From contig JAEEGQ010000142.1 of NCBI GenBank assembly GCA_016280395.1, forward strand, positions 1 to 64,000: a stretch of 64,000 bases of DNA. Reading direction: 5' to 3'. The translations under genes and the position numbers were made by a program. Origin of the DNA: Lachnospiraceae bacterium. Lineage in GTDB: Bacteria; Bacillota; Clostridia; Lachnospirales; Lachnospiraceae. Each line of letters starts with the position of its first letter. Position 1 is the stretch's first letter. Shown piece after piece: positions 16,560 to 55,145 of this stretch. The notes under the pieces were generated by a model, which saw only the letters and a program-made list of their open reading frames with translations, searched no databases and was not told the origin of the DNA.

Positions 16560-16769
16560 AGGGCCCGGCAGACCGGCGCCCAAAAGGGTATAGAAAAATC
16601 CCAAAGTGCCGTTCCCCGTACTTTGACTCCCAGCAAAAAAGCCAGGTGGGCGACCTCATGTACGCTTCCGAAGTCCCCTCGATGGAGGCTTGTCTTCCAC
16701 GGACAAATTTGGAATCCCATATAATCGTTGTAGGTTCAAAATAACGGAGTTCTCGCACACCCCAGGACT
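16560..16769 (-). ncRNA. ssrS: Candidate 6S RNA (SsrS), transcribed from the sigma-A promoter at 16776-16803, upstream of addB
   Basis: Minus-strand RNA begins AGUCCUGGGGUGUGCGAGAACUCCGUUAUUUUGAACCUACAACGAUUAUAUGGGAUUCCAAA; resembles the conserved 6S 5' strand (E. coli CUGAGAUGUUCGCAAGC...CCGAUAUUUCAUACCACAAGAAU, from memory). Rod-like pairing possible: UUCCAAA-GU-CCGU / ACGG-C-AC-UUUGGGA and terminal GUCCUGG / CCGGGCC. Confidence 0.6.
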
Positions 16770-16775
16770 GATTAT

Positions 16776-26531: not shown

Positions 26532-26602
26532 GCGGATATAGTACATCGGTAGTATGCAAGCTTCCCAAGCTTGAGAGGCGGGTCCGATTCCCGTTATCCG
26601 CT
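26532..26602 (+). tRNA. tRNA-Gly (anticodon CCC)
   Basis: GCGGATA ... CAAGC-TTCCCAA-GCTTG ... GCGGG-TCCGATT-CCCGT-TATCCGC; 7-bp acceptor stem; CCA not encoded. Confidence 0.93.
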
Positions 26603-26654: not shown

Positions 26655-26990
26655 GGGACAAACTGACAGGCGTAGTCAGCCAGACAGCCGCGGGGCCTGC
26701 CACTGCAGGTCGCAAACAACGGCTCCGCGACTAAGGTTCTTCCGGCAGGCCGCCGTGCACCCGCCACAACAGGTCGCAAACAACGGCTCCGCGACTAAGG
26801 TTCTTCCAGCGCCTCGCTTAACGGGCTCTTAGCGGCAGAGCCGCACGAGCCCTACTCGGCTTGGAACAACCTAAGGGCTACGCCTATCAGTTTGCGACCT
26901 GTTGTGGCGGGCGCCCGGCTATCGGCTTGGTACAGCCCAGTGGCTACGCCTATCAGTTTGCACCCTGCTGCGACGGCCCCCGGCCGGTTT
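26655..26990. repeat. Large modular palindromic intergenic element B
   Basis: Perfect 38-bp direct repeat CAGGTCGCAAACAACGGCTCCGCGACTAAGGTTCTTCC at 26706-26743 and 26770-26807; diverged pair of about 54-nt repeats at 26857-26910 and 26923-26976; 22-bp inverted repeat CCCGCCACAACAGGTCGCAAAC / GTTTGCGACCTGTTGTGGCGGG. Confidence 0.85.
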
Positions 26991-53916: not shown

Positions 53917-54723
53917 TCACTTTTTATAGATCGAAGGCTGTATCATTTCGAAATCAAGCCCTTTTCTGTCGATGATCTCCGTTACGCCGATAAACAGATA
54001 GCCGCCGGGCTCCATTGCGTCATAAACCTTTTTTAAAAGCTCCCGCTTTGTGGCATCATCAAAATAGATCATGACATTACGAAGGAACACTATATGGAAC
54101 CTGCGCTTGAAATTAAAAGGACTCATGAGATTAAAGCTCCTGAAGAGCACCTGTCTTCTTATCTCATCACAGACCTTATATTTTCCGTCCTTCTGCGTTT
54201 CAAAATAATCGCGAAGCCACGCGGCAGGCAGGTTTCCGACACGTTCAGCGTCATAAATGCCGGCATTTGCGACCGTAAGTGCTTTTGTTGATATATCCGT
54301 CGCAAGGATCGTCGTATCCCACTTCTTCGCCTCGGGGCCGAAGAAATCCCGTATCGTCATGGCTATCGTGAAGGCTTCCTCACCGCTTGAAGCCGCGGCA
54401 GACCAGATCCCTAAGTCCCTGAACATGCTGTTCTTTTCGGCAAGCTCAGGCAGCGCCGTATCTTTTAAAAAACTAAAATGCTCGGGTTCCCTTAAGAAAA
54501 AAGTGTGGTTGGTCGTAAGGGAATTAACGAGGGTGGATACTTCCTCTCCGAGCGGATTTTTATATACCCGGGCAAGCAATTCCGAGCATGTCTCATAACC
54601 GCCCTTAGCCATAACGGAAGCAAGCCGTCCTTCCACGAGCGCTTTCTTTCCGGCCAGATCTACGCCATAATTTTGTTTTATAAACGAAACTATCTGCAAA
54701 AACTCTTTTTCGGTAAGAACCAT
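53917..54723 (-). CDS. cheR: Chemotaxis methyltransferase CheR
   Basis: NSLTTNHTFFLREPEHFSFL...IWSAAASSGEEAFTIAM...HIVFLRNVMIYFD. Confidence 0.95.
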   Translation of the reverse strand: MVLTEKEFLQIVSFIKQNYGVDLAGKKALVEGRLASVMAKGGYETCSELLARVYKNPLGEEVSTLVNSLTTNHTFFLREPEHFSFLKDTALPELAEKNSMFRDLGIWSAAASSGEEAFTIAMTIRDFFGPEAKKWDTTILATDISTKALTVANAGIYDAERVGNLPAAWLRDYFETQKDGKYKVCDEIRRQVLFRSFNLMSPFNFKRRFHIVFLRNVMIYFDDATKRELLKKVYDAMEPGGYLFIGVTEIIDRKGLDFEMIQPSIYKK

Positions 54724-54754
54724 AAGTACTTCCTGCGAACGGGTTTATATTATG

Positions 54755-54783
54755 ATTATACAATTTTCTTTTCTTTTTGTCAA
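54755..54783 (-). promoter_or_regulatory. Consensus sigma-A promoter of the cheR operon
   Basis: Minus strand TTGACA-N17-TATAAT, perfect consensus and spacing. Confidence 0.8.
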
Positions 54784-54854
54784 CTTGACTATGAACTCCA
54801 CGTTTTCGAAAAACAGCATGTTTTGAATGTGCGGGAGGAGGGATGAAGGTAAAT

Positions 54855-55053
54855 GCCTGACCTGTGCCGGAGGAGACAGGGGGCCTTGCGGGGCCGGCTC
54901 GCGCCTTAGGTCGCGCTTCGTAGCGGAGACCCTGCGCCGAAGAGCGGCGCAGGGGCGCTAAACTCATGCTGCGCCTCCGGCTTGCATTCGTTAAGCGCCG
55001 ACGGCGCGACATATCCCCGCAAGGCCCCCTGTCTCCTCCGGCACCGGTCAGGC
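54855..55053. repeat. Large intergenic palindromic element C (199 bp; 39-bp terminal inverted repeats, 38/39 identical)
   Basis: GCCTGACCTGTGCCGGAGGAGACAGGGGGCCTTGCGGGG (54855-54893) versus reverse complement of 55015-55053; internal hairpins CCTGCGCCGaagagCGGCGCAGG and GCGCCGacGGCGC. Confidence 0.88.
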
Positions 55054-55079: not shown

Positions 55080-55113
55080 AAAAAAGCGCAGCCGCTAATC
55101 CTTGCGGCTGCGC
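55080..55113 (-). terminator. Terminator of hisC
   Basis: GCGCAGCCGC-aaggatta-GCGGCTGCGC-TTTTTTTT on minus strand. Confidence 0.85.
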
Positions 55114-55145
55114 CAAAGCACTCGTTATCACATATTTCTAAAGCT

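Follow-up and report, generated by a model that had tools for sequence, protein, structure and literature searches.

A dispersed palindromic element with a conserved hairpin core, probably an RNA module, at the hisC–cheR junction of a Lachnospiraceae bacterium

The 199-bp palindrome between hisC and cheR in this Lachnospiraceae genome belongs to a dispersed family whose copies share a conserved fold, and we hold with moderate confidence that it is a non-autonomous, MITE-like palindrome carrying a structured RNA module on its minus strand, at which a host RNA factor probably binds or processes the transcript. A role as RNA is suggested by covariation in strand-asymmetric loops, by the placement of the same hairpin on the sense strand of operons in related genera, and by its same-strand placement at nine loci of the genome itself. 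The present copy stands behind one gene's terminator and ahead of the next gene's promoter, a position that counts against an RNA role at this junction.

The palindrome and its surroundings

The arms of the element are complementary at 38 of 39 positions, the exception being 54863, and the interior between them measures exactly 121 bp, in agreement with the near-perfect 39-bp inverted repeats described in the sequence-only reading; in a repeat search the pairing could be extended to 56 nt at 86%. In the window, that is, the whole 64-kb stretch of DNA that was analysed, only two inverted repeats have arms of at least 30 bp with at most two mismatches and lie less than 300 bp apart, and the element is one of them. 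Folded as RNA, the element reaches −157 to −161 kcal/mol, whereas dinucleotide shuffles of the two strands average −98 and −102 (z = −13.1 and −11.2), and none of 200 shuffles was as stable; on both strands the fold is far more stable than chance would give. As expected of a MITE, it is short and non-coding and has no transposase; a minus-strand open reading frame (54605–55012) crosses it, overlaps cheR and its promoter, and has no Pfam match.

Both neighbouring genes are encoded on the minus strand; their products are a HisC-like aminotransferase (PF00155) on one side and CheR (PF01739) on the other. The hisC terminator and the consensus cheR promoter were located on that strand outside the element, where they had been placed before (Table 1). 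A terminator scan around the element returned the hisC terminator only, with no T run after either element end, and the element does not have the form of an intrinsic terminator, a GC-rich hairpin followed by a T run; nor was a promoter-like site of its own found. Because it is located between the terminator of one gene and the promoter of the other, its effect on hisC or cheR is probably small, and RNA from it at this junction most likely forms only on read-through. A chimeric assembly was ruled out, since a congener keeps hisC adjacent to cheR, and the junction is therefore real.

Table 1. Positions of the element, its parts and the neighbouring gene signals in the window
Feature	Position	Strand	Remarks
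Whole palindromic element	54855–55053	-	Minus is the motif-carrying strand, the same as hisC and cheR
Left arm, outer stem	54855–54893	.	About 17 bp nearest the core alignable between copies; outer ~22 bp copy-specific
Right arm, outer stem	55015–55053	.	Complementary to the left arm
hisC intrinsic terminator	55085–55114	-	Outside the element
cheR promoter	54755–54783	-	Perfect sigma-70-type consensus, TTGACA-17-TATAAT; outside the element
Covariance model R1 match	54952–55001	-	71.6 bits, E 4.9e-14
Core hairpin	54958–54995	-	CUUAACGA-AUGC-AA-GCC...GGC-GCA-GCAU-GAGUUUAG
5' half of helix below core hairpin	54998–55003	-	CGUCGG; covarying C-G / U-A position
3' half of helix below core hairpin	54919–54926	-	CCGCUACG; conserved CU bulge
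Additional stable hairpin	54930–54954	-	CCCUGCGCCGCUCUUCGGCGCAGGG; in some copies, missing from others (e.g. L006)
Mini-hairpin	54896–54905	-	GGC-GCGA-GCC, GNRA-type tetraloop; preceded by conserved CCUAAG (54905–54910)
Junction helix	54910–55010	-	GUCGCGC (55004–55010) / GCGCGAC (54910–54916); compensatory change keeps pairing, e.g. L072

The core hairpin and the common fold

The core hairpin contains a U·U mismatch, a tandem GA/GA and a second internal loop, and follows the pattern CUUARYGA-stem-GARYUUAG; even a copy with a different, longer upper stem (L071) retains CUUAACGA...GAGUUUAG. In an alignment of 30 distinct hairpins, 93.5% of cells keep the pairing and 69 cells are doubly changed, compared with 20.6 in column-shuffled alignments. 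Among 92 model matches, in an alignment (A2) built by fitting to the model and biased in its favour, the pairs hold in 90.3% with 227 doubly changed cells against 72.9 in the shuffles. Compensatory changes thus exceed the column-shuffled controls, as expected of a structured RNA.

Beyond the hairpin, full-length relatives from at least seven genomes of several genera share a larger fold. The helix below the hairpin, CG[C/U]CGG / CCG-CU-[G/A]CG, has a constant pyrimidine bulge, mostly CU, and its switch position is paired in 38 of 38 full-length relatives, as C-G in 25 and as U-A in 13; the switch is seen both inside single genomes and between genomes and therefore arose more than once. Nearly all full-length relatives end with a GC-GNNA-GC mini-hairpin, mostly of GNRA type and often after UAAG. 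Strong covariation in the hairpin and in the helix below it, the absence of which had been named as a reason to doubt the element, supports the earlier suggestion of a structured RNA, a suggestion compatible with that of a MITE-like element. The third suggestion, a protein-bound DNA site for recombination or topology, gained no support.

If RNA pairing is under selection, mismatches in the arms should be G-U more often than A-C. This is so in the own genome, with 23 G-U and 8 A-C mismatches, but over all genomes the counts of 77 against 58 do not differ significantly (p = 0.12).

No curated model of Rfam release 15 overlaps the element at gathering score in a search over the window, and none matches the hairpins of the relatives at E up to 1–3 over their loci, so that identity with a known Rfam family was rejected. 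The window also contains a 6S RNA (16594–16771, minus strand) and a tRNA gene (26532–26602). A description of the CUUAR hairpin motif was not found in the literature searched, which covered few subscription journals.

Copies, distribution and mobility

In the draft assembly of the organism (3.43 Mb, 163 contigs), five other loci carry the interior of the element at 78–90% identity, never with the outer arms, and it is therefore not the single copy that the sequence-only reading had allowed for. Model R1 recovers 11 strong hairpins at 9 loci, and the family comprises about ten copies. When copies are compared side by side, the arms of each have their own sequence and are mutually complementary, and the ~17 bp next to the core have a consensus, by eye, near GCAGGGTGCNTTNCGGGGATAT. 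Two copies at unrelated loci (L003 and L004) are ~96% alike over ~235 bp, which points to a fairly recent duplication. Tandem repeats of ~280–300 bp bearing the same hairpin were also observed (L009, L011 and L012; C163:3558, 3858; C72:5946, 6226), and L009 and L011 also hold a GGGGCCGGTTCGCACCTTAG stretch in opposite orientation that resembles the 3' part of the window element.

At all nine loci the hairpin is on the strand of the upstream gene (1 in 512 for a fair coin), where Pfam identified seven of these upstream genes and the other two, with no Pfam match, rest on ORF length. The upstream genes include those for seryl-tRNA synthetase, a GGDEF protein, pseudouridine synthase, a reverse transcriptase, HypA (hypA) and DNA polymerase III. 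Several copies directly follow an intrinsic terminator, and the strand bias could also reflect a preferred location behind terminators. A UG26-type reverse transcriptase (DRT candidate) together with an RT-5 RNA occupies C127:61393–62825, and a second UG26-like gene lies at C71:1966–3156.

An exact-pattern scan with one genome per species returned 28 further stretches; every one came from Clostridia, and many of the records bear the names Lachnospiraceae, Blautia, Mediterraneibacter or Lachnoclostridium. With R1, the first pass of which drops weak matches in large searches, matches occurred in 30 of 60 draft genomes of the same family versus 2 of 38 of other families in the order, and in 4 of 8 family members versus 1 of 186 others in a class-wide sample. 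The core hairpin is nearly confined to one family, which the named records of the exact-pattern scan suggest to be Lachnospiraceae. A 42-nt core match was found in one plasmid record; a phage origin was rejected, with no match in phage records and the exact core pattern absent from viral contigs.

In several genera the hairpin occurs between genes on the sense strand, singly or as a tandem pair ~57 bp apart (mostly in tandem at L032, L041, L014, L024, L121, L139, L146, L151 and L158); orientation outside the own genome was read from mechanical ORFs, and operon gene names beyond the ARAGORN and Pfam calls are a reader's interpretation of translations. Sites in stable-RNA operons surround tRNA-Ile/tRNA-Ala in rRNA (16S-tRNA-23S) spacers, follow 23S rRNA, lie between tmRNA and tRNA-Leu, or fall within tRNA clusters, and sites in protein operons are rpmJ-rpsM, rpsM-rpsK (four genera), rpsH-rplF and gyrB-gyrA. 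Like the S4-Clostridia and Alpha_RBS leaders of Rfam, these hairpins would be structured RNA in ribosomal-protein operons, and weak sub-threshold matches to both models lie near those of L032; however, the hairpins are separate from those matches, stand between cistrons and also occur in unrelated operons. Tandem operon-type hairpins were not found in the window's genome with R1; here, as in other genomes, a longer palindromic element has the hairpin at its centre. In the WRIW records (Clostridiales metagenome assembly Nt197P3bin58; L016, L020, L023 and L035), a repeated element has two CUUAR hairpins flanked by TATACC/GGTATA stems, and at L025, L028, L156 and L202 half-elements stand in tandem, the repeated unit comprising one arm side alone, either the 5' or the 3' one.

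The congener that keeps the gene order (G002) has a hisC-cheR junction without the element and four copies elsewhere. A relative with such an empty site was one of the things on which the earlier proposal of a non-autonomous palindromic MITE-like element had been made to depend, and this junction and the multi-copy family now support it; at ~75% identity the two junctions are too diverged for insertion ends or a target-site duplication to be read. Dispersed copies and presence or absence between relatives are features of MITEs, and the element shows both. Every full copy has inverted repeats, but their outer arms are copy-specific in the own genome. Target duplications were looked for around the own-genome copies and none were found.

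In one relative (G288; CAMJIC records, a metagenome assembly), the core is carried within members of a MITE family whose common 12-bp ends, GTTACAAGTCAC, occur in 125 exact copies, against none of the reversed control pattern. Four core-bearing copies are flanked by 8-bp duplications, exact in two (GTAATTCC and GAGCCATT) and with one mismatch in two (AACAAGGC/AATAAGGC and GCCATTTT/GCTATTTT), and three others show no duplication; members of the family that carry these ends but lack the core can have duplicated targets too, e.g. CACTCACC. Core-bearing elements are mobile in this lineage, and the family is probably mobile in the own genome as well. A second palindromic dispersed family is present in the window at 26696–26981, where an inner element (26752–26919; 30-bp arms, 93%) is nested within another copy and separates its two halves. 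The ~100-bp core of the inner element recurs at three other places in the genome (C114, C35 and C10; 88%), with arms that are different but self-complementary.

The proposed mechanism would work much like that of known small repeats. Correia/NEMIS elements of Neisseria are small palindromic MITEs with terminal inverted repeats and target duplication, the transcript of which folds into a long stem that is an RNase III substrate (PMC2229807, PMC10969869). The present element is alike as a small palindromic MITE-like unit with a predicted long-stem transcript but, unlike them, has a conserved multi-helix core with GA/GA, U·U and GNRA features, and a family link is not claimed. BOX elements of Streptococcus pneumoniae are dispersed repeats built from modules that may be absent or repeated, and they have ends that pair and transcripts that fold strongly (PMC3049150); the likeness lies in modular, folded, dispersed repeats, membership again not being claimed, whereas the lineage differs and the core hairpin also occurs alone in rRNA, tRNA, tmRNA and ribosomal-protein operons. 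REP/BIME sequences are likewise short dispersed palindromes, often intercistronic, from which the element differs in its small family and multi-helix core. Structured-RNA surveys include mobile or repeat candidates, structured motifs in multiple copies per genome that were taken as parts of mobile elements (PMC11109978), a likeness to the present element; a search of the main text of that paper for Lachnospiraceae names gave no match.

Competing explanations and biological meaning

Arms that are copy-specific yet complementary, with mismatches that over all genomes favour no G-U over A-C, could also arise by replication template switching or selection for transposition hairpins in a purely DNA-level MITE-like palindrome, the RNA fold being incidental. 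Tandem half-elements (L025, L156) would be the expected product of palindrome-induced slippage, and the terminal inverted repeats and 8-bp duplications of G288 fit such a palindrome as well. Nevertheless, we consider this explanation unlikely, given that the core hairpin of stable-RNA and ribosomal-protein operons lacks long arms and, at every locus read, lies on the sense strand, that the GA/GA and U·U internal loops and the GNRA loop are kept across genera, and that placement is same-strand at all nine loci of the own genome.

It is less probable still, and indeed improbable, that the module is a passenger inserting into the tips of existing hairpins, such as terminators and palindromes, so that the arms would be the target's own hairpin. 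The ~110-bp conserved core of G049 flanked by unrelated terminator-like hairpins, the nesting in the second family of the window, and several own-genome copies right behind a terminator agree with such a process, but the arm sequence beside the core that is alignable between copies in the genus indicates that at least that part travels; the empty site of G002 has no hairpin of the element's sequence, but is too diverged to decide.

A very stable fold in a gene-gene junction could suggest that the element regulates hisC or cheR in cis in a site-specific manner, or that the locus has a small-RNA gene of its own, yet copies adjoin unrelated genes, the same junction of G002 is without the element, and both gene signals lie outside an element that has no promoter-like site, which makes this explanation very improbable. 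That the family spreads as a retro-element by means of the UG26 reverse transcriptase encoded directly upstream of L005 (61608–62825 of contig C127, with the RT-5 RNA upstream) is scarcely credible and was rejected, being largely refuted by genome distribution, as the reverse transcriptase is present in 5 of 98 genomes and missing from the element-bearing G002, G049 and G058.

Under the preferred reading of a mobile palindrome with an RNA module, a putative transposase acting in trans would spread the palindrome. Its invariant part is the CUUARYGA...GARYUUAG hairpin on its CU-bulged helix together with the GNRA mini-hairpin; a long outer stem closes this module and differs in sequence between copies, while the two arms of each copy stay complementary. 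In a transcript into which the palindrome had inserted, the multi-helix core would form in the RNA and would be bound or cut by an RNA-binding protein or RNase of the host that normally acts on rRNA, tRNA, tmRNA and ribosomal-protein hairpins; such a binding or processing site is suggested because the same hairpin lies on the sense strand of those operons in related genera. A more far-reaching reading, less probable than not, is that the CUUARYGA...GARYUUAG hairpin is a Lachnospiraceae-specific, previously undescribed RNA recognition module that is bound by a dedicated host protein in rRNA, tRNA, tmRNA and ribosomal-protein transcripts and has been captured and spread by palindromic mobile elements.

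The element would be a case in which palindrome arms that differ from copy to copy and an RNA core that is conserved evolve within a single element. If the RNA reading is true, a common gut-bacterial family would have an uncatalogued RNA module in its translation-machinery operons, and a mobile element would carry this module to new genes, so that the direct question would be whether a hairpin-binding protein processes, stabilises or antiterminates these transcripts.
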